A stretch of 64,000 nt of DNA from an uncultured Paracoccaceae bacterium (GTDB taxonomy: Bacteria > Pseudomonadota > Alphaproteobacteria > Rhodobacterales > Rhodobacteraceae). The position numbers and the translations under genes are program-made. Each line of letters starts with the position of its first letter. Position 1 is the first letter of the stretch. The stretch lies in assembly GCA_937916485.1 (NCBI GenBank), contig CALFSV010000044.1:1-64000 (forward strand). The letters are read 5' to 3'. Shown here piece after piece: positions 41,868-59,902 of the stretch. A model generated the notes under the pieces. The model ran no database searches. It had not been told where the DNA came from and saw only the letters and a list, made by a program, of their open reading frames with translations.

Positions 41868-41875
41868 TCGGGAAC

Positions 41876-41926: not shown

Positions 41927-42036
41927 GGACCTTACCTGAAATTGGCGATAAGCGGTCGGGCTTTGCTTTGTGGCAAGGCCCCGCCCATTGTCACTGACCC
42001 GCCATTTCGGCGCGGACCTGACCATTGGATATCACC

Positions 42037-43383
42037 ATGACGGACACTTCGACCAAGCCCGCGGCGGCCATTTCAACGACTGGTTCGACCTCGGGGCCAA
42101 GCTCCGGACCTCTGACGCGGTTCCTGCGCGCGACCGAAATTGACACCCGCCTTCTGGGCATGATGGGTGCCTTGTTGCTGATCTGGCTGGTGTTCCATTT
42201 TTATGGCGTCATCTTCAACGGGTTCGGCGCCTTCCTGACACCGCGCAACCTTTGGAACGTCTCGGTCCAGATGTCGTCCATCGGGATCATGGCGACGGGG
42301 ATGGTGCTCGTCATCGTGACCCGCAATATCGACCTGTCGGTTGGCGCAATCCTGGGCGTGACCGGCATGGTCATGGGGATCCTGCAGGTCGAAATCCTGC
42401 CGCAGTATCTGGGCCTTGGCCATCCGGCGATCTGGGTCATCACCGTCATCGTGGGCATCTGCGTCGGTGGCTGCATCGGCGCCATTCATGGCTGGCTGAT
42501 CGCCTATCGCGGCATTCCATCCTTTATCGTCACCCTGGGCGGCCTGCTTGTCTGGCGCGGCGCGGCCTTTCTGTCGGCCAACGGCAAGACGATTTCCCCG
42601 GTCGATGCGACCTTTACCCTTCTGGGCGGCGGGCCCTACGGCGCGATCGGCGCAGTGGGCAGCTGGACGGTTGGTGTGATCGCCTGCCTTGGTATTCTGG
42701 CAGCGCTCTATGCCGGTCGCCAAAGCCGCAAGCGGCATGACTTTCCTGTTCGTCCGATGTGGGCAGAGATTTTCATGGGTCTTTTGGGCTGTGGCCTTGT
42801 CATTGGCGCTGTCCTTGTCGTGAACGCCTATCCCTGGCCGCGTGGTATCGTGAATAGCTATATCGAGGCCAACGGCATCGTGCTGGCCGAGGGCGAGACG
42901 CTCTTTATCAGCCACGGCTTTGCCTACCCCGTCCTGATCATGCTCACCGTCGCGCTTTTGATGACCCTTCTGGTCAGCCGCACCCGGTTTGGTCGTTATG
43001 TCTTTGCCATTGGAGGTAACCCGGAGGCGGCGGCGCTCGCAGGCATCAACGTGCGCTGGATGACGCTGCGGATCTTTGCGCTGATGGGGGCTTTGGCTGG
43101 CTTGGCGGCAGTCGTCGCCTCGGCCCGTCTGAACTCAGCCACCAACGCTCTGGGGCTTTTGGACGAACTTTATGTCATCGCCGCTGCGGTCGTCGGGGGC
43201 ACCAGTCTGGCGGGGGGCGTCGGCACGATTTACGGGGCGATCCTCGGGGCGCTGGTGATGCAAAGCCTGCGGTCCGGGATGGTGTTGATCGGCTTCGACA
43301 CCGCCGTTCAGCAGATCGTGGTGGGGTCGGTCCTCGTCCTCGCCGTCTATCTCGACAACCTGTATCGCAACAGAGCGAAGTGA
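42037..43383 (+). CDS. xylH: D-xylose ABC transporter permease
   Basis: The 448-residue inner-membrane protein is of the RbsC/XylH branch, with about ten or more hydrophobic helices. ATG 42037 is used; the in-frame TTG four codons earlier is weaker. Features include the cytoplasmic loop [15 protein letters not shown], which contacts the ATPase, and [25 protein letters not shown] near the end. An extra loop of about 50 residues around 225-290 makes it longer than RbsC, as is usual for XylH. Confidence 0.9.
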
Positions 43384-43393
43384 GGGGCAGGGC

Positions 43394-44161
43394 ATGAGCA
43401 CAGAACGCACAGGAACGCCGATGGTCGAGCTGCGCGACATCTCGATCGCCTTCGGGGGGATCAGGGCCGTCGACGGAGTGTCGCTAGACCTTTATCCGGG
43501 CGAGGTCGTGGGCCTGCTTGGTCACAACGGGGCCGGCAAGTCGACGTTGATCAAATGCCTGTCGGGGGCCTATCAGGCCGACCACGGCCAGATCTTCATC
43601 AATGGGCAAGAGGTCACGATCAACAACCCGCGCGACGCGCGCGAATACAATATCGAGACGATCTACCAGACCCTGGCCCTTGCCGATAACCTTGATGCGG
43701 CCTCGAACCTCTTTTTGGGCCGGGAACTGGTGACGGGCGGCGGACTTCTGGACGACGCAAGGATGGAGGCGGAGACCCGCCGCATTCTGGCCCGCCTCAA
43801 CCCCAACTTCAAAAAGTTCAAGGACCCGGTCAGCGCCCTGTCCGGTGGTCAGCGGCAGTCGGTGGCCATTGCGCGGGCGGTCTACTTCAACGCCAAGATC
43901 CTGATCATGGACGAGCCGACGGCCGCCCTTGGTCCGCAGGAAACCCAGATGGTGGCCGAGCTTATTCACGAGCTGAAGCGTGATGGGCTTGGCATCTTTT
44001 TGATCGACCACGATGTGCATGCCGTAAAGCAGCTGTGCGACCGGGCGGCGGTCATGAAGAATGGCCAGCTGGTAGGCGTGGTCAAGGTCGACGAAGTGAC
44101 CGAAGACGACCTTCTGGCGATGATCATCCTTGGAAAGAAGCCAGAACATCTGGCTGCCTGA
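43394..44161 (+). CDS. xylG: D-xylose ABC transporter ATPase, single-domain form
   Basis: The 255-residue ABC ATPase has Walker [10 protein letters not shown], signature LSGGQRQ, Walker B ILIMDEPT and the switch His in DHDVHAV. Enteric XylG/RbsA proteins carry two ATPase domains (about 500 residues); this one carries a single domain, like the FrcA-type ATPases of alphaproteobacteria, and must dimerise. It starts 11 bases after xylH and is followed by xylB after 16 bases. Confidence 0.9.
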
Positions 44162-44176
44162 ATAATTGGGGCGAAA

Positions 44177-45607
44177 ATGGCGACCTATATCGGCCTGGAC
44201 CTTGGGACGTCGTCCTTAAAGGCGATTCTGATCGACGAAGATGAGACTGTCCTGGCAGAGCATACCGTGCCCCTGTCGGTGCAGCGTCCCCATGACGGCT
44301 GGTCCGAACAAGACCCGGCCAGCTGGGCCGCTGCGGCGGATGCGGCGCTTGCCGCCCTTGCGGGCAAGGCCGATTGCAGCGCCCTTGCCGGGATCGGACT
44401 GTCGGGCCACATGCATGGTGCGACGCTGCTGGACGCCGAAGACCGGGTGTTGCGGCCCTGCATGCTGTGGAACGATACCCGCAGCGCGGCGCAGGCGGCC
44501 CGGATGGATGCCGATCCTCGCTACCGCGCCATCACCGGCAATATCGTCTTTCCCGGCTTTACCGCACCCAAGGTCGAATGGGTCCGCGAGACTGAGCCGG
44601 AGGTCTTTGAAAAGATCGCCAAAGTCCTGCTGCCAAAGGATTATCTACGCCTGCATCTTACCGGTGGCCATGTGACCGAGATGTCGGATGCGGCGGGGAC
44701 AGCCTGGTTTGACACCGGCGCGCGGGACTGGTCCGACGCCTTGCTGGCCGACTGTCGCCTGTCGCGGGCGCAGATGCCCAGCCTTGTCGAAGGCTCTGCC
44801 GTTTCCGGCAGGCTCCGGGGTGGCTTTGGCCTGCCGCAGGTGCCTGTCGCGGGCGGGGCCGGGGACAATGCGGCGGCAGCCATCGGGGCGGGGGTGGTTC
44901 AGGATGGCACGGCCTTCCTGTCGCTTGGCACCTCGGGCGTGCTTTTCGCGGCCAACGATGGCTACCGGCCCGATCCGGCAACTGCCGTCCACACGTTCTG
45001 CCATGCGGTACCGGGAACATGGCACCAGATGGGTGTGATTCTGGCGGCGACAGACGCGCTTGAGTGGCTGTCCCGCCTGACCGGGCAAACGGCAGCTGAT
45101 CTGACGCGGGACCTCGGGCCCTTTCAGGCACCTGGCCGCACCCTGTTTCTGCCCTATCTTGGCGGAGAGCGGACGCCGCACAACAATGCCGCCATCCGGG
45201 GGCAATTCCTGCATCTGGACCACGCGACCGACGCCAAGGCGGCGACGCGAGCGGTGCTGGAAGGGGTCGCCTATGCCTTTGCCGACAGCCGCGATGCGCT
45301 GGCGGCCACGGGCACGACGATCCGGCAGGCGCTGGCCATCGGGGGCGGGGCGAAATCAGCCTATTGGCTTGAGGTACTGGCCACGACCTTGGGCTTTGCA
45401 TTGGATGTGCCGCGGGCGGGCGACTTTGGCGCGGCCCTTGGCGCGGCGCGTCTGGGGCGCATGGCCGCAACCGGGGCAGGGGCAGAGATCGCCACTACCC
45501 CACCCATCGAGCGCACTGTCACACCGGATGCCGGACTGACCGCGGCCTTTGCCGAGGGCCACGCCCGCTACCGGGACAGCTATCAGGCCCTGAAGGGCCT
45601 ACACTAG
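44177..45607 (+). CDS. xylB: Xylulokinase
   Basis: The 476-residue FGGY-family kinase begins GLDLGTSSLKA (phosphate-1 motif, Asp at 8). It has the substrate motif SGHMHGATLLD, the GGAGDNAAAAIG segment with the catalytic Asp, and the ATP site AIGGGAKSAYW. It phosphorylates D-xylulose made by XylA. The length is normal. It lies between the ABC ATPase and xylose isomerase genes in the expected operon. Confidence 0.92.
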   Translation: MATYIGLDLGTSSLKAILIDEDETVLAEHTVPLSVQRPHDGWSEQDPASWAAAADAALAALAGKADCSALAGIGLSGHMHGATLLDAEDRVLRPCMLWNDTRSAAQAARMDADPRYRAITGNIVFPGFTAPKVEWVRETEPEVFEKIAKVLLPKDYLRLHLTGGHVTEMSDAAGTAWFDTGARDWSDALLADCRLSRAQMPSLVEGSAVSGRLRGGFGLPQVPVAGGAGDNAAAAIGAGVVQDGTAFLSLGTSGVLFAANDGYRPDPATAVHTFCHAVPGTWHQMGVILAATDALEWLSRLTGQTAADLTRDLGPFQAPGRTLFLPYLGGERTPHNNAAIRGQFLHLDHATDAKAATRAVLEGVAYAFADSRDALAATGTTIRQALAIGGGAKSAYWLEVLATTLGFALDVPRAGDFGAALGAARLGRMAATGAGAEIATTPPIERTVTPDAGLTAAFAEGHARYRDSYQALKGLH

Positions 45608-45622
45608 AAAGGGATTGAGGAC

Positions 45623-46915
45623 ATGACAGACTTTTTTGGGGGCATTCAGCCCGTCGTCTATGAGGGGCCGGACGCCCAAAGTGACTTTGCCTTTCGCCAC
45701 TACAATCCCGACGAAATGGTCATGGGCAAGCGGATGGCGGACCATCTGCGCTTTGCCATCGCCTATTGGCACTCCTTTGCGTGGCAGGGGGGCGACCCCT
45801 TTGGCGGGCAGACTTTTGAACGGCCCTGGTTTGGCGACACGATGGACCTTGCCCGGCTGAAGGCCGATGTGGCGTTCGAGATGTTCACCATCCTGGGTGC
45901 GCCCTACTTTTGCTTTCACGATGCGGACGTCCGCCCGGAAGGGGCTGATTTTGCAGAGAATACCCGTAATCTGCGCGGCATCACCGATTATTTCCAGGGC
46001 AAGATGGAAGAGACCGGGGTCAAGCTGCTTTGGGGCACGGCGAACCTGTTTTCGCACCGGCGCTATATGTCGGGGGCGGCCACCAACCCCGACCCGGAGG
46101 TCTTTGCCTTTGCTGCGGCCACCATCAAGACCTGCATGGATGCCACACACCAGCTGGGTGGCGAAAACTATGTGCTGTGGGGCGGGCGTGAAGGCTACGA
46201 GACACTGCTGAACACCGACATGGGCCGCGAACGCCAGCAGGCTGGCCGGATGTTGCAGATGGTTGTCGATTACAAGCACAAGATCGGCTTTGACGGGACC
46301 ATCCTGATCGAGCCCAAGCCGCAGGAACCGACCAAGCACCAATACGACTATGATGTCGCGACCGTCTATGGGTTCCTCAAGGATTTCGGCCTTGAGGGTG
46401 AGGTCAAGGTCAACATCGAACAGGGCCATGCCATTCTGGCGGGGCATTCGTTCGAACATGAGCTGGCGCTGGCGCGGGAGCTGGGGATTTTCGGTTCGAT
46501 CGACATGAACCGTAATGATTACCAATCCGGCTGGGACACCGACCAGTTCCCCAACAATGTGCCCGAAATGGCGCTGGCCTATTACGAGGTTCTGCGGGCA
46601 GGCGGGTTCAAGACCGGGGGCACCAACTTTGACGCCAAGCTGCGGCGCCAGTCGCTGGACCCGGAGGACCTGATCCTGGCCCATGTCGGTGGCATGGATG
46701 CCTGTGCGGCGGGATTGAAGGCGGCAGCGGCGATGCTGGAGGACGGCAAGCTCGAAGAAGCGCGCGCGGCGCGCTATGCCGGTTGGGAGACCTCGGGCTA
46801 CCTCGACAGTGATCTTGCCGCGCTGACGGCCGAGGTCGAGGCAAAGGGCATCAATCCCGCGCCCCGGTCCGGCCGGCAGGAGCGGTTGGAGAACCTCGTT
46901 AACCGCTATCTCTGA
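45623..46915 (+). CDS. xylA: Xylose isomerase
   Basis: The 430-residue class II xylose isomerase has the catalytic His in [11 protein letters not shown] and the metal ligands in [18 protein letters not shown] and [18 protein letters not shown], with [13 protein letters not shown] follows GGGATTGAGGAC. It converts D-xylose to D-xylulose as the first catabolic step. It is the last gene of xylFHGBA, and a hairpin repeat lies right after its stop. Confidence 0.94.
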
Positions 46916-47011: not shown

Positions 47012-49159
47012 TCAGGGGCCGTTCTTGGCCTCGCGCTGCAGTTCGCTGGTGAGGTTCGGGTTGTAGAACATGGTGGCGGACCTGTCCGGCAAAGCGTTTC
47101 TTTCCTTGAGCCATTGCAGAATGTCCTGTCCTGACATGGGATGGGCGCAGAGGTAGCCCTGGATCGCGGTGCAGCCAAGCGCCCGTAGGACGTCCCGCTC
47201 GGCGGTGGTTTCCACGCCTTCGGCCAGCACCTCTAGCCCGAAGCGGCCGGCCAGGTCGATCACCGCCTCTGCGATGACCCTGGAGTCTTCGTCCTGGTCG
47301 ATGTCGCGCACGAGGGACTGATCCATCTTGATCCGTTGTACGGGGAAGCGCCGTAGCGAGCCGATGGCGCTGTGACCGGTGCCAAAGTCGTCCAGTTCAA
47401 TTGCGAAGCCAGAATTGGCGAGCTTATGAATGGTTTCGCCGGCCTGTGCGGCCCTTTCGTCGAGAAGGGTGGTTTCCAGGATCTCGAACCTGAGGTGGGC
47501 GGGGCTGAGGCCAAAAGCCTCGACCTGCCGGACGATCCTTGGGTGCAGGGTCGCATCGGCCAGTTGGGCGCTGGAAATGTTCAGGCTGACCTTTGGCGCG
47601 TCGACACCGGCGCCGACGAGTGTCCGGATGAACCCGAGGCTTTGCGTCAGGACGGTGGCATCGATGTCGGGGATCAACCCGGCCTCTTCTGCTGCCGGAA
47701 GGAAGGTGGCGGCGTTTAGAAGCCCGCGATCGGGGTGTTGCCACCGGGCCAGTGCCTCGAACCCCAGGACGCGGGACCCGTCAATGCTGAGCTGTGGCTG
47801 GAAATACGGGATGATCTGCCCTGCGTTCAGGGCCGCCCGGATCTGTTGTGCCAGCAAGGCGTTCGAAACCGTGCCGTGCCGCATGTTGGCGCAAAACAGT
47901 TCCGAGCGGTTTCGTCCCCCCCGCTTTCCCAGGTTCAGCGCAATGTCAGCGTCCGAGACGGTCTGTTCGAAACTATGTGCAGACCCCAGATCCCAGGTGG
48001 CCACCCCGACGCTGGCGCCGACAAGGCACTGCCTGCCCCGGTAGAGGATCGGGCGGGCAATGTCGTGTCGGATCCAGTCTGCGATCGAGATGAGTTGTTC
48101 ATCCGTCAGCCTTGTTTGCATCAGAACGAGGAACTCGTCACCGCCGATCCGGGCGACGACATCGCGGTGGCGGACATGCATGCGCAGCCGGTCCCCCACC
48201 TTAGACAGAACATGGTCGCCGGCATCGTGCCCAAGCGCATCGTTGATCGACTTGAACCGGTCGAGATCGAGGTGCAGCACGGCCAGCCTTTCCTGTGCTG
48301 TCAATTCGGCTGCGGCGGCGGCAAGAAAGCTCGAGACGCCCCGCCGGTTCAGAAGGCCGGTCAGGACGTCGGTCTCGGCGGCCATCTCAAGCTGGTGCTG
48401 CTTGCGTTTTATGTCGGTGATATCGACCCGGATACCGACCCGTACGCCATCGGGTGTCCGACGTTCCACGATCCGCAGCCAGCGCCCATCGGTCAGGAGT
48501 TGTTCGACCGTCGCACTTTGATCCAGGTGGCGGGCCGTCCGCTCCTGCAACCAGGCCTCTTCCCGACCGACGGCCTCTGCGTATTGGCCGTTTTCAAGGC
48601 CGTAGCGCAGAATATCCTCAAACCTTGCGCCGGGGATCATGGCGGGGGCACTGAGGGCGTAAATCTCGCGGTAGCGGCTGTTGCAGACGATGAGCCGATC
48701 GTCCTTGTCATAGTGGACAAAGCCGTCGGGCAAGGTTTCGACCGCGTCGATCAGCGTATTTGCAGCGTTGCGGGCGGCCCGTCGGGCTGATTGCAAGGCC
48801 GTGGCATCGACCCCCTGTGCCAGGACGACCGAAGGGGGGCCGGGGTCGAGAGACAGCCCAAGCTCTGCCTCGTAGGCGGTGCCGTCCTTGCGACGGTAGG
48901 TCAGCGTCAGGGGAACCGAGGCGACCTGCCCCAGGATCAGCGGAGCCAGCCGATCCTGCAGATCGCGGATGTCATGATCTGGACAGATGTCGGCAAGGGT
49001 CAGCCTGGCCAGTTCACCAGCGTCATATTGCAGGTTGGTGCGCGAGTGCCGGTTGGTGAGAACAATCCGAAGGGTGTCCGCATCGAAGGCCATCGCCTCA
49101 CCGGGTGAGGTTTCAAAGGCGTGTTGCAGCAAGAAGCTGGAGATCGTTGGGTCTGACAT
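47012..49159 (-). CDS. PAS-GGDEF-EAL cyclic-di-GMP signalling protein
   Basis: ATG 49159 gives 715 residues. Two PAS-like regions (about 5-110 and 125-260, the latter with LPDGFVHYDKDDRL) precede a GGDEF domain with intact RIGGDEF and an EAL domain with intact FEALARW, the acidic segment EILETTLL and ELDDFGTGHS. Both active sites look competent, so it could make or break c-di-GMP; such tandem proteins usually favour one activity. No membrane helices are seen, so it is cytoplasmic. It is a single gene. Confidence 0.9.
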   Translation of the reverse strand: MSDPTISSFLLQHAFETSPGEAMAFDADTLRIVLTNRHSRTNLQYDAGELARLTLADICPDHDIRDLQDRLAPLILGQVASVPLTLTYRRKDGTAYEAELGLSLDPGPPSVVLAQGVDATALQSARRAARNAANTLIDAVETLPDGFVHYDKDDRLIVCNSRYREIYALSAPAMIPGARFEDILRYGLENGQYAEAVGREEAWLQERTARHLDQSATVEQLLTDGRWLRIVERRTPDGVRVGIRVDITDIKRKQHQLEMAAETDVLTGLLNRRGVSSFLAAAAAELTAQERLAVLHLDLDRFKSINDALGHDAGDHVLSKVGDRLRMHVRHRDVVARIGGDEFLVLMQTRLTDEQLISIADWIRHDIARPILYRGRQCLVGASVGVATWDLGSAHSFEQTVSDADIALNLGKRGGRNRSELFCANMRHGTVSNALLAQQIRAALNAGQIIPYFQPQLSIDGSRVLGFEALARWQHPDRGLLNAATFLPAAEEAGLIPDIDATVLTQSLGFIRTLVGAGVDAPKVSLNISSAQLADATLHPRIVRQVEAFGLSPAHLRFEILETTLLDERAAQAGETIHKLANSGFAIELDDFGTGHSAIGSLRRFPVQRIKMDQSLVRDIDQDEDSRVIAEAVIDLAGRFGLEVLAEGVETTAERDVLRALGCTAIQGYLCAHPMSGQDILQWLKERNALPDRSATMFYNPNLTSELQREAKNGP

Positions 49160-49367
49160 ACATGGTCCAGGCTGGGCCAAATGACCCGAGTGAGTGGCCT
49201 GATGATGATGCCGTCGCGGTCTTTATCAACGGGTAAAGAGTATCGGTAAAGGACCGGTGCCGGGGGCTGTAAATCTGTAGCCTTTTAGGAAGTGCCTCTA
49301 CCCAAAGTTGTTTCGGACGGGGCCGCTGCGGCCGCCCCTATCTGATCCGTGTGTCTAGGTGCCGTTG

Positions 49368-49886
49368 TCAGATGCCTTCATCCTGGAAAAAGCCGTAGCG
49401 CCCGCCGTGAAACACCAAAGGCTCGGCCCCACTGTGATGTGCCCGTATCACCCGTCCCACGACGATCACATGGTCGCCGGCGTCGTGGGTTGCCTCGAGA
49501 TTACATTCAAAACACGCCGCAACCCCGTTGATCAGGGGCACGCCCTGTGGGCTTGTCACCCAGTCAAGATCATTGAAGGCGGTCTTGGACCGGGTAAACG
49601 CCTCGCAAATGGCCTTTTGGCTTTGGTCGAGGATATGGATCGCGAAACGCGGCGCGTGGGCGAAATGCACAAAGCGGTGCGAGGCTTTGGCGGGTGACCA
49701 CAGCACTAGCGGCGGGTCAAGGGACACGCTGGCAAAGCTGTTGGCGGTGATCCCGACCGGGCCTTCGGGCGTATCGGTGGTCACGACCGTGACCCCGGTG
49801 GCAAAGGCCCCCAGCGCGTTGCGGAACGCCCGGGCGTCGTCCTGCGGCGAAAACTGTGTTCCGGGGGCGATCGAAATCTCGTCCAT
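49368..49886 (-). CDS. Flavin reductase (HpaC/SmoA-like), NAD(P)H:FMN
   Basis: The 172-residue flavin-reductase-like split-barrel protein has FATGVTVVTT, GITANSFASVSLDPPLV and FECNLEATHDAGDHVIVVGRV, typical of the small component of two-component flavin monooxygenases. It overlaps the aldo-keto reductase stop by one base and is the third gene after the SsuD-like monooxygenase, so it should supply that enzyme with reduced FMN. In the sulfoquinovose monooxygenase pathway the equivalent protein is SmoA. Confidence 0.86.
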   Translation of the reverse strand: MDEISIAPGTQFSPQDDARAFRNALGAFATGVTVVTTDTPEGPVGITANSFASVSLDPPLVLWSPAKASHRFVHFAHAPRFAIHILDQSQKAICEAFTRSKTAFNDLDWVTSPQGVPLINGVAACFECNLEATHDAGDHVIVVGRVIRAHHSGAEPLVFHGGRYGFFQDEGI

Positions 49887-50782
49887 TAGGCGACCTCATG
49901 GCCAAGTGCGGCCTCGTAAAGGGTGAACCACGTTTGCCGGTCCATCGCGACCTTGAGCGCGTCTGACAAAGTGGCGATCCGGCTTAGGGTGTTGGTGCCC
50001 ATGACCGGAAGAATGCCTGCAGGATGGGCCAAGAGCCATGCCACCGCTACCGCTGCCGCGTCGACATCGTGCAGCTGTGCGATCTCGCGCAGCTTCTGTG
50101 TCACACCAGGGCGGCTTTCGGCCATCAGATGGCCGCCGCCAAGCGGGGACCATGCCATGATCGGCTTGGCCTGTTCATGCAGGAAGGCGACGTCCCCGTT
50201 GGTGAAGGGGTCAAGGGCGGTCAGGCTGAGTTCGATCTGGTTGGTGGCAAGAGGTGTTTCCATGCGCGATTGCAGCAGCTTCCAGTCCCAGGGGCGAAAG
50301 TTGGACACGCCAACCGCGCCGACCTTGCCGCTTTGGACCAGATCATCAAGAGTGCGGCCCGTCTCTTCGGGGCGCATCAAGGGATCGGGGCGGTGGATCA
50401 GCAAAAGGTCGATCTGGTCGATGGCCATCAGCGACAGCGATGTATCGACCGAGGATTCGATATGGGCGCGCGAGGTGTCATAGTGCTTGACCCGTGCGCC
50501 CGCGTGGCGTCCTGCATCCACCACGATGTCGCATTTCGTTACGATCTCGACCTGCGACTTGAGTGCGGGGGCGGCCCGGAAAGCGGCGCCGAGGATCTCT
50601 TCGGCCATGTAGCCGCCGTAGATGTCGGCCTGATCGAGCGTCGTGATGCCCTGGGCCAGGCAGCTTTCGACCTTGGCCTGAACATGGGCGGCAGAGGTGT
50701 CGGGGTCGTCGCCCAGCCGCCACATGCCATAGACGATGCGGGACAGATCAACGCCGCCGCCCAGTGTTACACGTTCCATCAT
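49886..50782 (-). CDS. Aldo-keto reductase, YdhF/SmoB-like
   Basis: The 298-residue TIM-barrel reductase has the catalytic tetrad visible: D50 and Y55 in DQADIYGG, K83 in VTKCD and the His in LLLIHRPDPL. The LIHRPDPL and ATNQIELS blocks place it in the YdhF branch. It overlaps the monooxygenase stop (TGATG). In the Agrobacterium sulfo-SMO pathway the matching enzyme SmoB reduces 6-oxo-glucose to glucose with NADPH. That role is inferred from context here. Confidence 0.82.
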   Translation of the reverse strand: MMERVTLGGGVDLSRIVYGMWRLGDDPDTSAAHVQAKVESCLAQGITTLDQADIYGGYMAEEILGAAFRAAPALKSQVEIVTKCDIVVDAGRHAGARVKHYDTSRAHIESSVDTSLSLMAIDQIDLLLIHRPDPLMRPEETGRTLDDLVQSGKVGAVGVSNFRPWDWKLLQSRMETPLATNQIELSLTALDPFTNGDVAFLHEQAKPIMAWSPLGGGHLMAESRPGVTQKLREIAQLHDVDAAAVAVAWLLAHPAGILPVMGTNTLSRIATLSDALKVAMDRQTWFTLYEAALGHEVA

Positions 50783-51939
50783 CAGCGGCGGTCTCCTGTG
50801 CCCAGAGGGGTCTGGGGTGTTGTCGCGGGCACGCGCCCGTATGCATGGGGAAGCGAGCAGGTCTTGAGTTCGGGCATTACCCGGGTTCCGAAATGGACAG
50901 CTTCGTCGATATGCGGATAGCCAGAAAAGATGAAGGCCCGGATGCCCATCTTGCGGTAGGCCTCTATCTCGGACAAGACCTGATCGGTCGACCCGACAAG
51001 GGCCGCCCCGCAGCCCGACCGGGCCCGTCCGATCCCGGTCCATAGGTGCGGCTCCACATAGCCGAACTTGTCCGCCAGCTCCCGCGCCTTGGCCTGATGG
51101 GCGACGCCAAGCGAGATGGAATCATGTGCCCTGTCGCGGATCATCTTGCCGCAGTCGTCATCCAGTTTGCTGACCAGATGTTCGGCGTATTCCCGTGCCT
51201 CGGCCTCGGTGTCGCGCACGATCATATGGACCCGCAGACCATAGTCGAGGGTTCGGCCGTGCGCCTCGGCCCTTGCGTGCACATCGCGCATGCGCTGGGC
51301 GATCTGTTCCTTGGGTTCGGGCCACATCAGGTAGACGTCGCATTGCGCCCCGCAAAGCTCGAGCGCGGGTGGGGAATAGCCGCCAAAGTAGAGCAGGGGC
51401 CCGCCGTTGTGCTGGTAGGGGCGGGCCGGGTCGGTGGAAAGGCCGTGAAACTGGTAGACCTCGCCATCGAAATCGACGGTGTCGCGGGTCCAGCACTGGC
51501 GCAGGATCTCGACCACCTCATGCGACCGCTTGTAGCGAAAGGCGCTGTCGGCCACTTCGCCCGGAAAATCCGAGGAGATGACGTTGAGCGTCAGCCGCCC
51601 TTGCAACATATGGTCGAGCGTGGCGACCGTGCGGGCCAGCATGATGGGCTGCATCTCACCGCAGCGGATCGCGGCGAGAAAGTTGATGTCGGTTGTCAGC
51701 TGGCTCATCGCGGCGACGAAGGACAGGGTGTCCTGACCGACCTGATAGGACGACGGCGCCAGCACATTGCGAAAGCCTTGCGCCTCGGCCGTCTGGACGA
51801 TGTCGCGGCAATGGGCAAAGGACGATCGCAGGTCGCCGTCCGGCACCCCTAGAAAGGCGTAATCGTCTGAACACAGGGCGGAAAACCACGACACTTCCAG
51901 GGCGTCCAGGTCGGCGCTTGTTACCGGTACGACAGTCAT
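50782..51939 (-). CDS. Luciferase-like FMNH2-dependent monooxygenase, SsuD/SmoC-like
   Basis: ATG 51939, behind GGGAGGG, gives 385 residues, close to SsuD (about 380). Luciferase-fold blocks include FLAAIRCGEMQPIMLARTVATLD, the LTLNVISSDFPGE segment and YFGGYSPPALELC. The C-terminal segment near GIRAFIFSGYPH matches the alkanesulfonate monooxygenase pattern. The operon order monooxygenase, aldo-keto reductase, flavin reductase equals smoC, smoB, smoA. The expected reaction is oxidative loss of sulfite from a sulfonate, most likely sulfoquinovose. Confidence 0.82.
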   Translation of the reverse strand: MTVVPVTSADLDALEVSWFSALCSDDYAFLGVPDGDLRSSFAHCRDIVQTAEAQGFRNVLAPSSYQVGQDTLSFVAAMSQLTTDINFLAAIRCGEMQPIMLARTVATLDHMLQGRLTLNVISSDFPGEVADSAFRYKRSHEVVEILRQCWTRDTVDFDGEVYQFHGLSTDPARPYQHNGGPLLYFGGYSPPALELCGAQCDVYLMWPEPKEQIAQRMRDVHARAEAHGRTLDYGLRVHMIVRDTEAEAREYAEHLVSKLDDDCGKMIRDRAHDSISLGVAHQAKARELADKFGYVEPHLWTGIGRARSGCGAALVGSTDQVLSEIEAYRKMGIRAFIFSGYPHIDEAVHFGTRVMPELKTCSLPHAYGRVPATTPQTPLGTGDRR

Positions 51940-52000
51940 GAAGCCCTCCCACAGGATCGCATTTATTGGACTTGCGTAGCACCTCGGCATGTGTGCATCA

Positions 52001-52009
52001 ATACTGTAT
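52001..52009. promoter_or_regulatory. Candidate operator in the smo-like divergent gap
   Basis: ATACTGTAT is a short palindrome flanked by direct copies of ATCAAT, in the 100-base gap between the monooxygenase and gntR starts. HutC-type regulators bind similar short AT-rich palindromes. Confidence 0.35.
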
Positions 52010-52039
52010 CAATTGCGGGGCACATCGAGGGGAACGGCG

Positions 52040-52777
52040 GTGCAGGACGACTTGGACAGGCCGCTGGCCTTGGCCTCGAAGGCCGCTTTGCCAAAATATG
52101 TCCGCATCTCCGAGCGCCTGATCCGCGACATCGCGGCAGGCCGGCTGACCGACGGGGCCCGGTTGCCGCCCGAACGCGAGATGGCAGTAGAGTTGGGCGC
52201 TTCAGTCGGGACCTTGCGCAAGGCGCTTGCCGATCTGGCGGACAAGGGGCTGTTGGAGCGTATCCAGGGCTCTGGCAACTATGTCCGGCAACGCCCCGAA
52301 GCAGCGTCGGTCTACGCATTCTTCCGGCTGGAGCGTCCCGAGGGGGGCGGCTTGCCGACGGCCCTATTGCTGTCGGTCAAGACGATGGCCAAGCCTGCCG
52401 ACATTCCCGCCTTTGGGACATCGTCCCTTGGGCACCGCATTCGGCGCTTGCGGATGCTGGATGACGCGGTCGTGGCGCTTGAGGAAATCTGGCTCGACGG
52501 TGGCTGCGCCAAGCGCATCGTAGCCGAGGATCTGTCGGAGTCGCTGTACCTCTACTACCGCGATGACCTTGGCCTTGTCGTCAGCCGGGTCGAGGACCGG
52601 ATCGGGATGGAGACCGTCCCAGACTGGGCCGACGAAAGGTTCGCCCCCGTGGCCGGAGCGCCCTGTGCCCATATCGAACGGCTTAGCTGGGCAGGGGATG
52701 GTCCGGCGATCGAGTATTCGCGCAATTGGTTCGATAAAGACCAGGCAAAGTATATTTGCCGCATGGGAAGAGGCTAA
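52040..52777 (+). CDS. GntR-family regulator, HutC/UTRA subgroup
   Basis: GTG 52040 has GAGGGG seven bases upstream and gives 245 residues. An ATG at 51989 is in frame but lacks a ribosome site and would cover the candidate operator. The winged helix is clear (LPPEREMAVELGASVGTLRKAL), followed by a UTRA ligand domain (VALEEIWLDGG to AIEYSRNWF). It is divergent from the smo-like operon and four bases before the Gfo/Idh gene, so it probably controls both. It differs in ligand-domain type from the two FadR-type regulators at 8.7 and 22.7 kb. Confidence 0.84.
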   Translation: MQDDLDRPLALASKAALPKYVRISERLIRDIAAGRLTDGARLPPEREMAVELGASVGTLRKALADLADKGLLERIQGSGNYVRQRPEAASVYAFFRLERPEGGGLPTALLLSVKTMAKPADIPAFGTSSLGHRIRRLRMLDDAVVALEEIWLDGGCAKRIVAEDLSESLYLYYRDDLGLVVSRVEDRIGMETVPDWADERFAPVAGAPCAHIERLSWAGDGPAIEYSRNWFDKDQAKYICRMGRG

Positions 52778-52781
52778 AATA

Positions 52782-53870
52782 TTGCAAAATGTAAATTATG
52801 GATTGGTCGGTTGCGGCATGATGGGGCAAGAGCACATCCGCAATATTGCCCTTTTGCCGGGGGCCCGGATCACGGTTGTCTACGATCCCGTCACCGCCCT
52901 TGCCGAACATGCCGCCGCTATGGCGGGCGGGGCGCGGGTGGCCTCGTCGCTGGCCGACCTGCTGTCGCAGCCCGACCTTGATGCGCTTGTCGTCGTCAGC
53001 CCCAACCACGTTCACGTCAGCCAGATGCGCGAGATTGCCGCGACCCGTCCCTTGCCTTTGCTGATGGAAAAGCCGCTTTATACCGACCCTGCGGACGCGG
53101 CTTTCGTGGCGTCGCTCAAGGACAGCTATCCCGCGCCGATCTGGGTGGCGATGGAATATCGCTACATGCCCCCGATGACCGCCATGATCGAGGCGGCGGA
53201 TGAGGCGACGGGCGGCATCAGGATGTTGACCATCCGCGAACACCGCTTTCCCTTCCTGCCCAAGATCGGGGACTGGAACCGGTTCAACAGCCAAACGGGC
53301 GGCACCATGGTCGAGAAGTGCTGCCATTTCTTTGACCTGATGCGGGTCATGCTGCACAGCGACCCGGTCCGGGTCATGGCCAGCGCCGGGCAGGGGGTGA
53401 ACCACCTTGAGGAAGAGATTGGTGGCAAGAGCCCGGACATCTGGGACCACGGCTATGTCCTTCTGGACTTTGCCAATGGTGCGCGGGCCATGCTGGAGCT
53501 TTGCATGTTCGCCGAAGGCAGCCGATATCAGGAAGAGGTGAGCGCGGTGGGGCCGGATGGCAAGATCGAGTGTTTCATCCCCGGTCCGGGCCGGTTCTGG
53601 CCGCAGAGCCTTGGCCCCGCGCCCTTGCCCCAGCTCGTGATCAGCCCGCGCAACCCCAAGGGACCTATGCATCAGGACATCCCCGTCGATCCTGCCTTGT
53701 TGACAGCCGGGGACCACAACGGATCGACCTTCTACCAGCACCAGAAGTTCAATGCCGTGGTGCGGGGCGAAGGCGAGGTTGAGGTGACGTTGCATGATGG
53801 TGCGATGGCCGTGGCCATAGGTATCGCAGCGCAAGACTCCGCCCGAACGGGGCAGGCGGTCCGCCTCTGA
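52782..53870 (+). CDS. Gfo/Idh/MocA family protein, candidate NAD-dependent glycosidase (GH188-like)
   Basis: The best start is TTG 52782, nine bases after GAGG and four bases after the gntR stop; it puts GLVGCGMMG at residues 7-15, as normal for the fold. It has 362 residues. EKPL and the segment GGTMVEKCCHFFDLMR hold the usual catalytic Lys and His. Its link to the smoABC-like operon through a shared regulator raises the possibility that it is one of the NAD-dependent sulfoquinovosidases, which belong to this fold and accompany sulfoquinovose pathways. Plain sugar dehydrogenase activity is the alternative. Confidence 0.78.
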   Translation: MQNVNYGLVGCGMMGQEHIRNIALLPGARITVVYDPVTALAEHAAAMAGGARVASSLADLLSQPDLDALVVVSPNHVHVSQMREIAATRPLPLLMEKPLYTDPADAAFVASLKDSYPAPIWVAMEYRYMPPMTAMIEAADEATGGIRMLTIREHRFPFLPKIGDWNRFNSQTGGTMVEKCCHFFDLMRVMLHSDPVRVMASAGQGVNHLEEEIGGKSPDIWDHGYVLLDFANGARAMLELCMFAEGSRYQEEVSAVGPDGKIECFIPGPGRFWPQSLGPAPLPQLVISPRNPKGPMHQDIPVDPALLTAGDHNGSTFYQHQKFNAVVRGEGEVEVTLHDGAMAVAIGIAAQDSARTGQAVRL

Positions 53871-53902: not shown

Positions 53903-54517
53903 TCAGATATCGAAAAAGACCGTTTCGTCAGGGCCTTGCAGGTGGATGTCGAACCGGTAGGCCCGGTCCCCGATCTTGCGGGCCAGCAGGGTCGGCACAC
54001 GGCTCTGATGCTCGATCCGGGTCAGGATCGGGTCAACGGCATTCGCTTCGGCCTCATCCTCGAAATAGATGCGGGTGTGCAGGCCGATGTTGATGCCCCG
54101 CGCCACCACCCAGGCGGTGATATGGGGGGCTTGCAGGCGGCCATCGGGCCAGGGCACCTGACCGGGCTTGACCGTTTCAAAGTGAAACTCTCCCGTCTCC
54201 ATGTCCCCCGGACTGCGGCCCCAGCCGGTAAAGTTCGGGTCCGCCACGCCGCGGGTTTCCTTGGGCGAGGGGTAGAGGCCTGCGGCATCGGCCTGCCAGA
54301 CCTCGATCATCGCGTCCTTCAAGACGCTGCCCATGCCGTCGAACACGGCGCCGGTCACGGTGATCTCGGTCCCCTTGACCGGGCCGGTTTTCATCGAGGT
54401 GCCCAGATCGCCGCCATAAATGCCGATCCCGGTAAAGTTGGGGGTGCAACCGATATGGACGTAAGGGCCTGCCGTTTGGGACGGGCTTTCCTTGAGGTAA
54501 GACAATGGTTGGGTCAT
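53903..54517 (-). CDS. pcaG: Protocatechuate 3,4-dioxygenase, alpha subunit
   Basis: The 204-residue intradiol-dioxygenase-fold subunit begins with the SPSQTAGPYVHIG block typical of PcaG, and FDGMGSVLKDAMIEVWQADAAG follows. It lacks the full iron-ligand set, as expected because the iron is held by the beta subunit. Its ATG overlaps the pcaH stop by four bases. Together they open the ring of protocatechuate to 3-carboxy-cis,cis-muconate. It is the last gene of pobA-pcaC-pcaH-pcaG. Confidence 0.92.
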   Translation of the reverse strand: MTQPLSYLKESPSQTAGPYVHIGCTPNFTGIGIYGGDLGTSMKTGPVKGTEITVTGAVFDGMGSVLKDAMIEVWQADAAGLYPSPKETRGVADPNFTGWGRSPGDMETGEFHFETVKPGQVPWPDGRLQAPHITAWVVARGINIGLHTRIYFEDEAEANAVDPILTRIEHQSRVPTLLARKIGDRAYRFDIHLQGPDETVFFDI

Positions 54518-55239
54518 CACACACCCTCCTGACGGTTTTCAAAGAACGACTGCCGCGCCCCGCGCAGGACTATGTCGAACTTGTAGGCAAGGGCGTCCAT
54601 CGGGACGGTCCGGTTCATGTCGAGGGGGGCGATCAGGGTCTTGATCGCTTCGGGGTTGCTCACAGCCCCAAGGATCGGGCAGCGCCAGATCAGCGGGTCG
54701 CCCTCGAAATACATCTGGGTGATCAGGCGCTGGGCAAAGGCCTGCCCAAAGATGCTGAAGTGAATATGGGCGGGCCGCCAGTCATTCATGCCGTTGGGCC
54801 AGGGGTAGGCGCCGGGGTGGATGGTGCGAAACTCGTAATGGCCCTCGGCGTCGGTGATCACCCGGCCGCAGCCACCAAAATTGGGGTCGAGCGCGGCAAG
54901 ATAGCTTTCCTTCTTGTGCCTGTAGCGGCCACCTGCATTGGCCTGCCACACCTCGACAAGGGCGCCGGGCACGCCGCGCCCGTTTTCGTCAAGGACCCTG
55001 CCATGCACCATGATGCGCGGTCCGATCGCCTCTTCTCCGGGGCGGGCGTAGTTCAGGATCAGGTCGTTATCGAGCTTGCCCAATATGTTATGGCCAAAGA
55101 CCGGCCCCGTCTCTTCGCTGATCGAGGTTGGAAAGCTGAGAAGCGCGGCCTGCGGTGACCGTTTGATCGTGGTCTTGTAGGGGGGGTAAAGGCCGGGCGG
55201 CTGCCAGCCCCGGTCGCGCACATGATACCCGTTGGACAT
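54517..55239 (-). CDS. pcaH: Protocatechuate 3,4-dioxygenase, beta subunit
   Basis: The 240-residue catalytic subunit holds the Fe(III) ligands: Tyr in GGRYRHKKE, Tyr in PGAYPWPNG and the two His in RPAHIHFS. The N-terminal [11 protein letters not shown] block is characteristic. It pairs with PcaG, whose gene overlaps. Upstream, pcaC ends one base before the intergenic step to pcaH. The ring-cleavage product would go to PcaB, which is not in this window. Confidence 0.93.
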
Positions 55240-55240
55240 G

Positions 55241-55618
55241 CTACTCTCCCTTCATTTCCGAATAGGTCTGTTTGGCAAGCTTGATGGCATGATTGGCCTT
55301 GGGCACGCCTGCGTAGACGGCCACATGCAGAAAAGCCTGCATCACATCCTCGGGGCTAGCGCCGGTGTTGGCGCTGGCGCGGATGTGCATCGGGATTTCC
55401 TCGAAATTGCCAGTGGCGGCCAGCAGGGCCAGGGTCAGCATGGACCTTTCGCGCCGGCTGATGGTGTCGTCTGACCAGAGCGTGCCCCAAGCACCCTCGG
55501 TGATGAGGGTCTGAAAGGGCGCATCGAACGGCGTCTTGGCCGCCTCGGCCCGGTCGACATGGGCGTCGCCCAGAACCTCGCGCCGGGTCTTCATGCCCTC
55601 GGCCATCCTGTCGGTCAT
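55241..55618 (-). CDS. pcaC: 4-carboxymuconolactone decarboxylase
   Basis: The 125-residue AhpD-like helical protein of the carboxymuconolactone decarboxylase family has [27 protein letters not shown] and the [20 protein letters not shown] segment. It acts after PcaB in the beta-ketoadipate pathway, giving the enol-lactone. It starts 30 bases after the pobA stop and is not fused to PcaD, unlike the PcaL fusions of some bacteria. Confidence 0.9.
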
Positions 55619-55648
55619 CCTGCGCTCCTTCGATAAGGCGACTGGCCC

Positions 55649-56818
<1,170 letters not shown>

Positions 56819-56843
56819 CTAGACCTCCCTGTGGTGGATAGAA

Positions 56844-56870
56844 TTTACTATTCCATTCAGGGCAAGTAAA
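56844..56870. promoter_or_regulatory. Candidate LysR operator between pobA and pcaQ
   Basis: TTTACT (56844-56849) and AGTAAA (56865-56870) form an inverted repeat spaced by 15 bases, close to the size of LysR T-N11-A boxes. A wider pair, GGCAAG/CTTGCC (56861-56866, 56891-56896), also spans the gap. Confidence 0.5.
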
Positions 56871-56910
56871 ATGACAAAATATCCTTATTGCTTGCCATCT
56901 TGGAAAGCAA

Positions 56911-57837
56911 ATGGACCGCCGTATCAAGTTTCGTCATCTGGACGCCTTCGTCGCCATCGCCCGGGCCAAAAGCCTCAAGCGGGGTGCCCTTCAGATCAAC
57001 CTGAGCCAGCCCGCGATGTCCAAAACCCTCAAGGACCTTGAAGACATCCTGGGCACGACCCTGATGGAGCGGGACCGCTCTGGCGTGCGCCTGACCGCGC
57101 AGGGAGAGGTGTTCCTGCACTATGCCGAGCAGAGCATTGCGGCCCTGCAACATGGTCTCACCAATATCGAAAGCCTTGGCAAAGGCACCGCCGTTCCGCT
57201 GTCGGTCGGGGCGATGCCCTCGGTCGCGGCGCAGTTCCTGCCCGAGGCGATGGCCGAATTTCGCGACATTTCGCCCGATACGGTGCTGCATATCGAAGAG
57301 GGGCCGCACAGCTTTCTGGTGGACCGGTTGCGGCGCGGGGCGCTGGATCTGGCGGTGGGGCGGTTGGGCCTGCCCGAGACGATGGTGGGGCTGACCTTTA
57401 CCCAGCTCTATTCCGAAAGCGTCGTTTTTGCCGTGGCGCCGGACCATCCGCTGGTCGGCAATCCCGATCTGATGGCGATCAACGATCACCTTGTCGTCTA
57501 TCCCCCAAAGGATGCCGCCATCCGGCCCCTTGTCGCCCGGTTCCTGATCAGTCAGGGCGTGGCGCTGTATGACCGGCGGATCGAAAGCACGTCGATGGCC
57601 ATCGGGCGGGCGCTGGCGCTGGGGCCGGGCCGGGCGGTCTGGGTGATCTCGCGCGGGGTGGTGGCGGCGGATGTGGCGGCCGGGCATCTGACCATCCTTG
57701 ATATTGATACTTCGCCCACCGCTGGCCCAGTGGGGATCATGTCGCGTGCAGATGCAGACCTGTCGGCGGCGGCGCGCCTGTTCAGCCGGATTCTGAAAGA
57801 CAGGGGCGAGGCGCATGGCAACCCGGCAGGGTTGTGA
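56911..57837 (+). CDS. pcaQ: LysR-family regulator, PcaQ type
   Basis: The 308-residue protein begins RRIKFRHLDAFVAIARAKSLKRGA and continues with the recognition helix near LSQPAMSKTLKDLEDILG, features I associate with PcaQ. The substrate domain follows. PcaQ activates pca genes with beta-carboxy-muconate or gamma-carboxymuconolactone. Divergent placement beside pobA-pcaCHG supports the call; a PobR-like role is possible. Confidence 0.85.
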   Translation: MDRRIKFRHLDAFVAIARAKSLKRGALQINLSQPAMSKTLKDLEDILGTTLMERDRSGVRLTAQGEVFLHYAEQSIAALQHGLTNIESLGKGTAVPLSVGAMPSVAAQFLPEAMAEFRDISPDTVLHIEEGPHSFLVDRLRRGALDLAVGRLGLPETMVGLTFTQLYSESVVFAVAPDHPLVGNPDLMAINDHLVVYPPKDAAIRPLVARFLISQGVALYDRRIESTSMAIGRALALGPGRAVWVISRGVVAADVAAGHLTILDIDTSPTAGPVGIMSRADADLSAAARLFSRILKDRGEAHGNPAGL

Positions 57838-57846
57838 CGCGTGACG

Positions 57847-57879
57847 AAATTAATTGCTATGCATGTGAACAATTAATTT
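57847..57879. promoter_or_regulatory. 10-base inverted repeat AAATTAATTG / CAATTAATTT
   Basis: Perfect arms at 57847-57856 and 57870-57879 with a 13-base spacer lie just after pcaQ and 42 bases before the crotonase gene. It is AT-only apart from one G/C pair, so it is a poor terminator stem. An operator for the crotonase-TRAP operon, perhaps for MarR or another regulator, fits better. Confidence 0.65.
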
Positions 57880-57920
57880 ATATAACAAAGTCGAAGTGAG
57901 GACGACGGCAGGGGGCTGGA

Positions 57921-58703
57921 ATGCCAGAGGGCGGCTTTACCGCGGATGTGATCCGCATGGAACGCGACGGCGCGCTGGCGATCCTGATATTTGACCGTCC
58001 GGCCAAGCGCAATGCGATGAACGACGACCTTGTCGATGCATTGGATGCGTTTTTCTCAAACATTCCCAAGGATGTACGGGCTGTGGTCCTGTATGGTGAG
58101 GGTGGGCATTTCTGCTCGGGCCTTGATCTGTCAGAGCATCGCCACCGTTCACCCGAAGAGACGGTCTACCATTCGCGCAATTGGCACCGTGTTGCCGACC
58201 TGATTGAATTTGGCGGCGTGCCGGTGGTGGCCGCCCTGACCGGCGCTGTGATTGGTGGCGGGCTTGAGATCGCGGCAGCCGCCCATGTGCGGGTGGCAGA
58301 GCCATCTGTCCGGTTCCAACTGCCCGAAGGGCGGCGCGGCATCTTTGTCGGCGGTGGCGCCACGGTGCGTGTTGGTCGTCTGCTTGGCCCCGATCGCATG
58401 CGCGAGATGATGTTGACCGGGCGCAGCTACGGCGCTGAGGAAGGGGTGACCCTTGGCCTTGCGCATTATGCAGTAGGCGAGGGGGAGGCTCTGGCCAAGG
58501 CCAAAGAGCTTGCCTTGCGGATCGCAGAGAACGCGCCCTTCTCCAACTATCTGATGATTAACGCGATCTCGCGGATCAACGACATGTCGCGCAGCGATGG
58601 CCTGTTCATGGAAAGCCTGTCGGCCGCCATGTCCCAGACCACCCCTGATGCGACGGAGGGTTTACAAGCCTTTCTGGAAAAGCGACCACCTAGTTTCAGG
58701 TGA
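57921..58703 (+). CDS. Crotonase/enoyl-CoA hydratase family protein
   Basis: The 260-residue crotonase-fold protein has the oxyanion segments HFCSGLDLSEH and GAVIGGGLEIAAAAH and the glutamate-type site near QLPEGRRGIFVGGG. It does not match the feruloyl-CoA hydratase/lyase pattern I know, so simple hydration of an aryl-enoyl-CoA is more likely. It is the first gene of a run with a TRAP transporter. The SDR and acyl-CoA dehydrogenase nearby complete a beta-oxidation-like set. The ligase and thiolase are not in the window. Confidence 0.84.
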   Translation: MPEGGFTADVIRMERDGALAILIFDRPAKRNAMNDDLVDALDAFFSNIPKDVRAVVLYGEGGHFCSGLDLSEHRHRSPEETVYHSRNWHRVADLIEFGGVPVVAALTGAVIGGGLEIAAAAHVRVAEPSVRFQLPEGRRGIFVGGGATVRVGRLLGPDRMREMMLTGRSYGAEEGVTLGLAHYAVGEGEALAKAKELALRIAENAPFSNYLMINAISRINDMSRSDGLFMESLSAAMSQTTPDATEGLQAFLEKRPPSFR

Positions 58704-58707
58704 GCAG

Positions 58708-58727
58708 AGGGCAGGGAGAGCCCTTTT
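58708..58727 (+). terminator. Short hairpin with T-run after crotonase gene
   Basis: AGGGC (58708-58712) pairs with GCCCT (58720-58724), followed by TTT. It is weak and probably an attenuator or processing point before the TRAP genes. Confidence 0.45.
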
Positions 58728-58773
58728 GTAAAAGTATCTGCAACGTCTATAAAACGATCCTTGGGAGGTTACC

Positions 58774-59808
58774 ATGAAGAGATGGACCCTACTTTCGACC
58801 ATCGCAGCAGGTGCGATGGCGCTTTCGGCCCTGCCGGTCGCAGCACAGGAAGTGACCCTGCGCCTGCACCAGTTCCTGCCGCCGATGTCGACTATACCTG
58901 CCCAGATCCTTGTGCCTTGGGGCGAAGGCCTGACCGAAGCGTCGGACGGTCGCATCGTTGTCCAGCACTTTGACGCCATGTCCCTTGGCGGTCGCCCCGG
59001 CGACCTGCTGGATCAGGCGCGCGACGGTGTTGTCGATCTGTCGATGACGCTGGTGGGCTATACCCCCGGCCGCTTCCCCCGCAGCGAAGTCTTTGAACTG
59101 CCCTTCATGATGACCGACCCTGTCGCCACGGCTCTGGCCTTCTGGCAGATGGTCGAGTCTGACTTTCAGGACAGTGAATACGCCGATGTGAAGATCCTTG
59201 GCGCATGGGTCCATGGCCCCGGCGTGATCCACACCGCGGACCCGGTCAACAGCCTTGAGGATATGCAGGGCAAGACCGTGCGCGGACCGACCCGCGTCAT
59301 CAATGACCTGCTGTCCGAGCTTGGGGCGACCTCTGTCGGCATGCCGCTGCCCGCTGTCCCCGAAGCGCTGTCCAAGGGTGTCATCAACGGCACCGTGATC
59401 CCGTGGGAGGTCACGCCTTCGGTGCGTCTGACCGAGCTTGTCACCAACCACACCGAGTTCTCGGGGGCAGAGGCGCTTTACACAGCGACCATCGTTCTGG
59501 CGATGAACAAAGACCGCTACGAGGCGCTTCCCAATGATCTGCGGGCAATCCTGGACGAGCAGTCGGGCGCGGCGCTGTCCACTTTTGCCGCCCAGGTCAT
59601 GTATGACTACGACGCCCCCGGTCGGGACATCGCGGTCGCCGCTGGCAACAACATCATCACGCTGGACGAGGCTGAAGTTGCCCGCTGGAAAGAGGCCTCC
59701 TTGCCGGTCATCGCCCGCTGGGTGGACGAGATGACCGCCCAAGGCATCGACGGTCAGGCCCTGATCGACGAAGCCCGCGAGCGGATCGCGGCCAACTCGG
59801 CCATGTAA
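58774..59808 (+). CDS. TRAP transporter substrate-binding protein (DctP family), second system
   Basis: The 344-residue protein has a signal peptide (KRW start, cleavage near PVAAQE, about 20-25) and the DctP blocks QGKTVRGPTRVINDL (conserved Arg) and NGTVIPWEVTPSVRL. TGGGAGGTTACC precedes the ATG. Its place between crotonase and HSD10-type genes suggests an aromatic or phenylpropanoid acid as ligand, which some DctP proteins bind. A 10-pair hairpin follows its stop. Confidence 0.9.
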   Translation: MKRWTLLSTIAAGAMALSALPVAAQEVTLRLHQFLPPMSTIPAQILVPWGEGLTEASDGRIVVQHFDAMSLGGRPGDLLDQARDGVVDLSMTLVGYTPGRFPRSEVFELPFMMTDPVATALAFWQMVESDFQDSEYADVKILGAWVHGPGVIHTADPVNSLEDMQGKTVRGPTRVINDLLSELGATSVGMPLPAVPEALSKGVINGTVIPWEVTPSVRLTELVTNHTEFSGAEALYTATIVLAMNKDRYEALPNDLRAILDEQSGAALSTFAAQVMYDYDAPGRDIAVAAGNNIITLDEAEVARWKEASLPVIARWVDEMTAQGIDGQALIDEARERIAANSAM

Positions 59809-59855
59809 GAGCGCCAGTGTCACGGCCACCCGAGGTTGGCCCGACCCTGGCGACG

Positions 59856-59880
59856 GACCGGGCGCTGCTGGCGCCCGGTC
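59856..59880 (+). terminator. Perfect GC hairpin after the second dctP-type gene
   Basis: GACCGGGCGC (59856-59865) and GCGCCCGGTC (59871-59880) are perfect 10-base arms around TGCTG, 47 bases after the binding-protein stop. No T-run follows, so mRNA stabilisation rather than termination is likely. Confidence 0.75.
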
Positions 59881-59902
59881 GACCCTCAACCCCTTCGAAA
59901 GC

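Follow-up and report, generated by a model that had tools for sequence, protein, structure and literature searches.

A probable sulfo-SMO sulfoquinovose cluster with a GH188-type sulfoquinovosidase, a conserved operator-like element and a candidate unlinked importer in a Paracoccaceae bacterium

The window analyzed here is a stretch of 64,000 nucleotides (contig CALFSV010000044.1, positions 1 to 64,000 of the forward strand; assembly GCA_937916485.1) from an uncultured Paracoccaceae bacterium. Between positions 49368 and 53870 it has five genes that, judged from sequence, very probably form a cluster of the sulfoquinovose monooxygenase (sulfo-SMO, or sulfo-ASMO) pathway, joined by a sulfoquinovosidase of family GH188. 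Sulfoquinovose (SQ) is a plant and algal sulfosugar. Three of the genes are on the minus strand and encode a smoC-type SQ monooxygenase (50782..51939; 385 amino acids), a smoB-type aldo-keto reductase or 6-oxoglucose reductase (49886..50782; 298 amino acids), and a smoA-type flavin reductase (49368..49886; 172 amino acids), the last being the final gene of the smoCBA operon. At both the smoA/smoB and smoB/smoC junctions, the stop codon and the ATG share one base. On the plus strand, a divergent gene for a GntR/UTRA (HutC-type) regulator (gntR, 52037..52777) is followed after four bases by the TTG start of sqgA (52782..53870), whose Gfo/Idh-type product is predicted from matches to solved structures to be an NAD-dependent sulfoquinovosidase. 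Every product has Pfam domains above the curated cut-offs: Flavin_Reduct (137 bits), Aldo_ket_red, Bac_luciferase, GntR plus UTRA (65 and 80 bits), and GFO_IDH_MocA. The combination of a GntR helix-turn-helix and a UTRA ligand domain is that of HutC-type repressors. A preliminary description of this DNA had reported the overlapping minus-strand operon and the divergent regulator with its adjoining Gfo/Idh gene, and both arrangements are confirmed.

Identities of the monooxygenase and aldo-keto reductase follow from comparisons with solved structures. SmoC scored 751 and 749 bits to 7oh2 and 7olf, which we take to be SmoC structures (the entries carry generic molecule names), with residues 1–384 of 385 aligned, versus 206 bits to SsuD structures. 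SmoB scored 416 bits to 7bbz and 7bby, presumably SmoB structures, versus 201 bits to YdhF. The preliminary description had proposed these two assignments, and they stand; the monooxygenase did not prove to be closer to alkanesulfonate monooxygenases. Its third proposal, that the flavin reductase is SmoA, stands as far as domain and position go, since no solved SmoA appears by name among the Protein Data Bank matches of this protein (top match 4xhy, 171 bits).

Two samples were used to place the cluster in context. The first comprises the best 80 of 570 confirmed relatives from a scan of genome contigs, which are close SmoC relatives (82–98% identity) and which together with the window make up 81 loci. 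The second is a survey of 295 family genomes, each from a different genus, a sampling that reduces but does not eliminate shared ancestry in its statistics; SmoC was called present at E ≤ 1e-100 and was found in 124 genomes. Across the related loci, gntR is divergent from smoC in 80 of 80, and this recurrence excludes a chance arrangement. Relatives of smoB and smoA each occur near smoC in 71 of the 81 loci, the window included. In PMC13372026, SmoB plus SmoC within 10 open reading frames (ORFs) serves as the criterion for sulfo-SMO. SqgA is near SmoC in 55 of 81 loci and is encoded in 121 of 124 genomes with SmoC and in 24 of 171 without. These associations bear on whether the cluster could instead be a general alkanesulfonate (SsuD/MsuD-like) operon for scavenging sulfur, with the aldo-keto reductase and Gfo/Idh genes as unrelated neighbors. 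The Bac_luciferase and Flavin_Reduct families are common to SsuD/SsuE-like systems, but the scores of the monooxygenase rule out a plain SsuD system, and with SmoB and SqgA recurring beside SmoC the idea is scarcely credible. The view of the compact locus as a SmoABC-like desulfonation operon is supported by the structure matches of SmoC, SmoB, and SqgA and by the constancy of the gntR–smoC arrangement.

The Gfo/Idh protein is closest to 8zn9 and to solved GH188 enzymes. It scored 513 bits to 8zn9 and 365 and 364 bits to 8qc2 and 8qc3, the GH188 structures listed in PMC10755693; its top inositol dehydrogenase match reached 64 bits. That study names K107, Y136, R166, L170, K172, E189, H193, and H321 as active-site residues of ArSqgA. 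All eight positions are identical in SqgA of the window in a printed alignment with numbering matched by hand, including the sulfonate-binding R166, L170, and K172. The corresponding motifs are EKPL (from residue 96), MEYRYM (124), EHRFPFLPK (153), VEKCCH (177), and GDHNGST (310). One detail fits less well, as Glu163 of PMC10755693 lands on a Glu numbered 164 by the hand count. The protein could also be read as a sugar or inositol dehydrogenase, without glycosidase activity, that feeds the glucose product onward, and its Pfam domains are indeed of the Gfo/Idh/MocA dehydrogenase type. An inositol dehydrogenase is ruled out by the scores, and a dehydrogenase of this sort is very unlikely overall given that the sulfonate-binding Arg and Lys are kept and that SqgA never co-occurs with a GH31 sulfoquinovosidase in the 81 loci. 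The suggestion in the preliminary description that this gene encodes a GH188 sulfoquinovosidase is therefore upheld. Relative to the GH188 enzymes of structures 8qc2 and 8qc3, FlSqgA (Flavobacterium sp. K172) and ArSqgA (Arthrobacter sp. U41), SqgA of the window shares the NAD-binding Gfo/Idh-type protein and the catalytic and sulfonate-binding residues but is encoded in a sulfo-SMO cluster and is closer to 8zn9.

Composition of the clusters varies mainly in the sulfoquinovosidase and importer. SqgA is present in 55 of 81 loci, GH31 in 24, both in none, and neither in two (L033 and L057), both of which are cut by contig ends. By linked importer, the loci divide into SqgA with a tripartite ATP-independent periplasmic (TRAP) system (28), SqgA with another ATP-binding cassette (ABC) protein, SBP11 (16), SqgA with a SmoF-like ABC protein (1), SqgA without importer (10), GH31 with a SmoF-type ABC importer (15), and GH31 without detected importer (9). 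"Without importer" means that three binding-protein queries each gave less than 50% identity over half the query, and covers these query types only. The ten SqgA loci of this class include the window and L001, a near twin on a contig of a Flavimaricola metagenome-assembled genome (MAG) with the 12 sought window proteins at 94–99% identity. Eight of the ten, these two among them, have smoB and smoA; in L021 no smoA was detected, and a contig end cuts L042. Clusters of the Agrobacterium tumefaciens sulfo-SMO type (SmoABC) resemble the window in flavin reductase, SQ monooxygenase, and 6-oxoglucose reductase, and Agrobacterium-labeled loci such as L058 also have the divergent gntR and the 18-bp element described below. 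They differ in having genes for a SmoF-type ABC importer and GH31 beyond gntR (the class of 15), whereas the window lacks both and uses SqgA. According to Kaur et al. 2023 (PMC10755693), GH188 enzymes are near-universal in Roseobacter sulfo-SMO clusters, where, as in the window, sqgA replaces GH31 beside smoABC; such clusters differ in the TRAP system found beside smoA in 28 of 55 SqgA loci. The preliminary description had proposed a compact five-gene variant with neither its own importer nor GH31. This is true of the locus, and GH31 was also not found in the nearest relative genome examined (G001, a MAG that is 92% complete), but the window does not represent a separate pathway type because sulfo-SMO plus GH188 is already published (PMC10755693).

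Nine loci with SmoC and SqgA lack a detected smoB (L005, L007, L012, L018, L020, L029, L032, L077, and L080). The same nine adjoin a cluster of ABC, GH88, and KduI genes with a gene for an 826-amino-acid protein without a Pfam match. Their 6-oxoglucose reductase may be encoded elsewhere or be a different protein.

The interval between gntR and smoC contains a conserved operator-like element of 18 bp, AATTGATACAnTATTGAT, in 81 of 81 loci. In the window it reads AATTGATACAGTATTGAT on the minus strand (51997..52014). Best ungapped matches to this sequence in the 81 gntR–smoC intervals are 14–18 of 18, and second-best matches are 9–13. The element mostly starts about 57–86 bases upstream of smoC, with outliers at ∼99 (L040) and ∼173 (L025). 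It occurs once in the window at ≤3 mismatches, compared with 0.05 in shuffled sequences. A perfect ATAC-n-GTAT palindrome was also considered as operator; it is present in only five of 81 loci (the window, L001, L003, L035, and L061), and the longer element was therefore taken as the candidate. Its position also informs the choice of start codons. The ORF list begins smoC at 51990 and gntR at an ATG at 51989. The start of smoC is probably 51939, because residue 1 then aligns with residue 1 of 7oh2, and that of gntR is probably the GTG at 52037, because the ATG at 51989 would place the element within coding sequence. A possible smoCBA promoter, TTGATG and TACGCA separated by 17 bp (51973..52001, minus strand), can be read from the sequence. 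Its −35 box falls within the element, as is also visible among the 12 of 81 alignment rows listed. We propose the element as a candidate site of the divergent GntR/UTRA regulator, to which binding is putative.

Presence of the element tracks that of SmoC. A pattern with N at position 11 and ≤2 mismatches was found in 132 of 295 genomes, comprising 114 of 124 with SmoC versus 18 of 171 without; the reversed pattern, used as a control, matched in 12 of 295. In at least 94 genomes the element is 48–111 bases before smoC. Additionally, 51 element regions, a subset of the far sites, were analyzed that are away from smoC or not resolved at smoC, 35 in genomes with SmoC and 16 in genomes without. EamA, YeiH, and glpD joined the genes looked for only after they or their families had been sighted, and their labels are thus weaker than those for sqgA, TRAP, and ABC. 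Two of the 35 regions are the SMO locus itself (G057 and G147) and ten have an intergenic element beside a candidate gene. G132, G164, and G203 have such an element beside a gene for an ABC binding protein, G132 and G171 beside an unlinked sqgA, and G005, a genome from an 18-genome element search outside the survey, beside TRAP genes. In G313 the neighbor is a PF03601 (YeiH-like) gene, and a further element in G132 adjoins a glpD-like gene, with another ORF beginning on the other side. Elements are also near genes for EamA-type transporters in G269 and G052 (254 and 203 bases off), and in G269 another gene begins 56 bases away on the opposite side. Among the 16 regions from SmoC-less genomes, SQ-type genes are present in G163 (gntR-sqgA and TRAP) and G060, and none of the sought genes are in the other 14, of which 11 have the element within an ORF. 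Three sites were counted as chance: that of the ABC gene in G171 (L127), which overlaps the start codon, and those in G135 and G273 (1 mismatch), which are inside ORFs.

On balance, and with moderate confidence, we favor the reading that the GntR/UTRA regulator and 18-bp operator define an SQ regulon across Rhodobacterales and Rhizobiales that may include genes off the SMO cluster, that TRAP and ABC systems may be interchangeable importers within it, and that the importer-less cluster of the window may be one piece of a regulon or gene set spread over the chromosome. Several observations pull the other way. Ten of 124 genomes with SmoC lack the element at ≤2 mismatches, and 22 of the 35 element regions of such genomes are without any sought gene. 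The SQ-type TRAP protein also occurs in 26 SmoC-less genomes, three of them without SqgA, and the ABC type in seven, four of them without SqgA.

In G132 (L118, L119, and L131), elements are present on four contigs, before smoC, sqgA, and the ABC binding protein gene on three and beside the glpD-like gene on the fourth; the latter fits with glycerol being freed from sulfoquinovosyl glycerol (SQGro). The element may in this way serve as a means to find unlinked SQ genes. In two genera (L121 and L122) it precedes an EamA-family transporter gene, whose product may belong to the same regulon and export a compound such as sulfite. In G060 (L163; G060:C37:5500-12500), gntR-sqgA and the element are followed by smoB, smoA, and TRAP genes; the stretch from the element to smoB has no match to smoC, and SmoC was not found in this genome at 1e-100. 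More generally, 23 of 24 SqgA-only genomes, which lack SmoC, encode the SQ-type TRAP protein and probably have other SQ pathways with the same importer.

TRAP and ABC binding proteins, each called at 1e-80, were found in 101 and 49 of the 295 genomes, respectively. In the 124 genomes with SmoC, 70 have TRAP only, 37 ABC only, five both, and 12 neither (Fisher p = 7e-16). The two types therefore largely exclude each other in these genomes. In the window, tblastn searches (E 1e-10, half the query covered) found no GH31, SmoF-type, SBP11-type, or SQ-type DctP gene; the other DctM of the window reached 29%. Inferences on its importer come from G001. That genome has no SQ-type TRAP protein (top match 26%, none at 1e-80) and no SmoF-type importer (top SmoF-like match 27% identity). 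It does encode one unlinked protein with 52% identity to the ABC binding protein whose gene comes after smoCBA in G052. A tree built from 46 ABC proteins together with rhizobial and SmoF rows puts this protein in a clade with a support of 0.991 and 40 usable tips. Fifteen of these tips share an analyzed region with SmoC; the remaining 25 comprise three with the element at ≤2 mismatches, one at 3, one at 4, and 20 with none. A long-branch row, L202 (G044), was set aside and G174 (L205) was outside both groups. Five of the 49 ABC genomes (G034, G070, G145, G156, and G201) were left out, and G152 was covered as L100 (G007, same coordinates).

For the organism of the window, the most probable importer is an unlinked ABC system like the one at G001:C34, encoded elsewhere in the genome and presumed to carry SQ or its glycoside. 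This best explains the importer missing from the five-gene locus and was unforeseen in the preliminary description. A competing explanation, which we regard as possible though doubtful, is that the unlinked system of G001 takes up unsaturated uronides and SQ enters by another route. In G001 and G006 the ABC operon adjoins genes for proteins like GH88 and like the 826-amino-acid protein, neighbors that would rather point to uronides as substrate. The one element in G001 at ≤2 mismatches is at smoC, none is within 3 mismatches on the contig of the ABC operon, and the protein is among the 20 clade members without an element. Members of the second ABC clade (rhizobial SBP11) likewise neighbor SMO loci, together with GH88 and KduI genes, and the substrate is therefore uncertain for either clade. 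The importer case depends on G001, which shares 30% of the 31-mers of the window. Favoring SQ over uronides are the clade itself, with 15 of 40 members in SMO regions and three more with the element, and the mutual exclusion of TRAP and ABC types.

Uptake could alternatively be through either of two importers that neighbor the cluster, both ≤10 kb away, rather than a distant ABC system. The first is part of an apparent xylose operon (39339–46915) of genes for a ROK regulator, a Peripla_BP_4 binding protein (40731–41867), a permease, an ATPase, XylB, and XylA, with the importer spanning 40731–44161. A xylB homolog is near the SMO cluster in five of 80 related loci (L001, L038, L049, L071, and L079). 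The second is a TRAP system (58774–61745). However, a ROK regulator and xylAB belong to the xylose operon itself, the TRAP system sits behind pca/pob-type genes, the window has no SQ-linked DctP match at 1e-10 over half the query, and no element is upstream of either importer. Uptake by these neighbors is unlikely.

For this organism, we infer from these comparisons the following course. Uptake of SQ or SQGro would depend on an importer whose genes are elsewhere in the genome, with the unlinked ABC system as the likeliest candidate. With catalytic NAD+, SqgA would transiently oxidize C3 and split the glycoside into SQ and glycerol. SmoA would provide FMNH2 to SmoC, which with O2 would break the C–S bond to yield sulfite and 6-oxoglucose, and SmoB would then use NAD(P)H to reduce 6-oxoglucose to glucose. 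Bound at the 18-bp element, which the likely −35 box of smoC overlaps, the GntR/UTRA protein would repress transcription in both directions until SQ or a metabolite lifts the repression.

The cluster confirms a published sulfo-SMO/GH188 pattern, to which the regulator element and importer pattern are added as named, testable candidates for the regulator site and importer. A word search of the main text of PMC10755693 finds no TRAP, ABC, regulator, or GntR, and TRAP and ABC are absent from the main texts of PMC13372026 and PMC12890257, which both treat the pathway. PMC9594981 mentions a characterized SQGro ABC transporter of A. tumefaciens, and PMC11465081 refers to regulators as well as ABC transporters in GH188 clusters of other kinds. 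Among the titles and abstracts searched, nothing addresses the element or the choice between TRAP and ABC, and Liu et al. 2023 (Roseobacter) and Sharma et al. 2022 may cover importers or the regulator; we say no more of novelty than that neither pattern was found in this literature.

Between the xylose operon and smoA is a gene for a PAS-GGDEF-EAL protein (47012–49180), found at full length only in L001 of 80 loci and partially elsewhere. In G236 (C7:10419-11066), a SmoC match is partial (residues 166–381) and has an internal stop codon. Downstream of sqgA, the region at 53903–61745 has protocatechuate dioxygenase genes and genes for an FAD_binding_3 monooxygenase, a LysR regulator, an enoyl-CoA hydratase, and the TRAP system; these are probably for the use of aromatic compounds, without a link to SQ.

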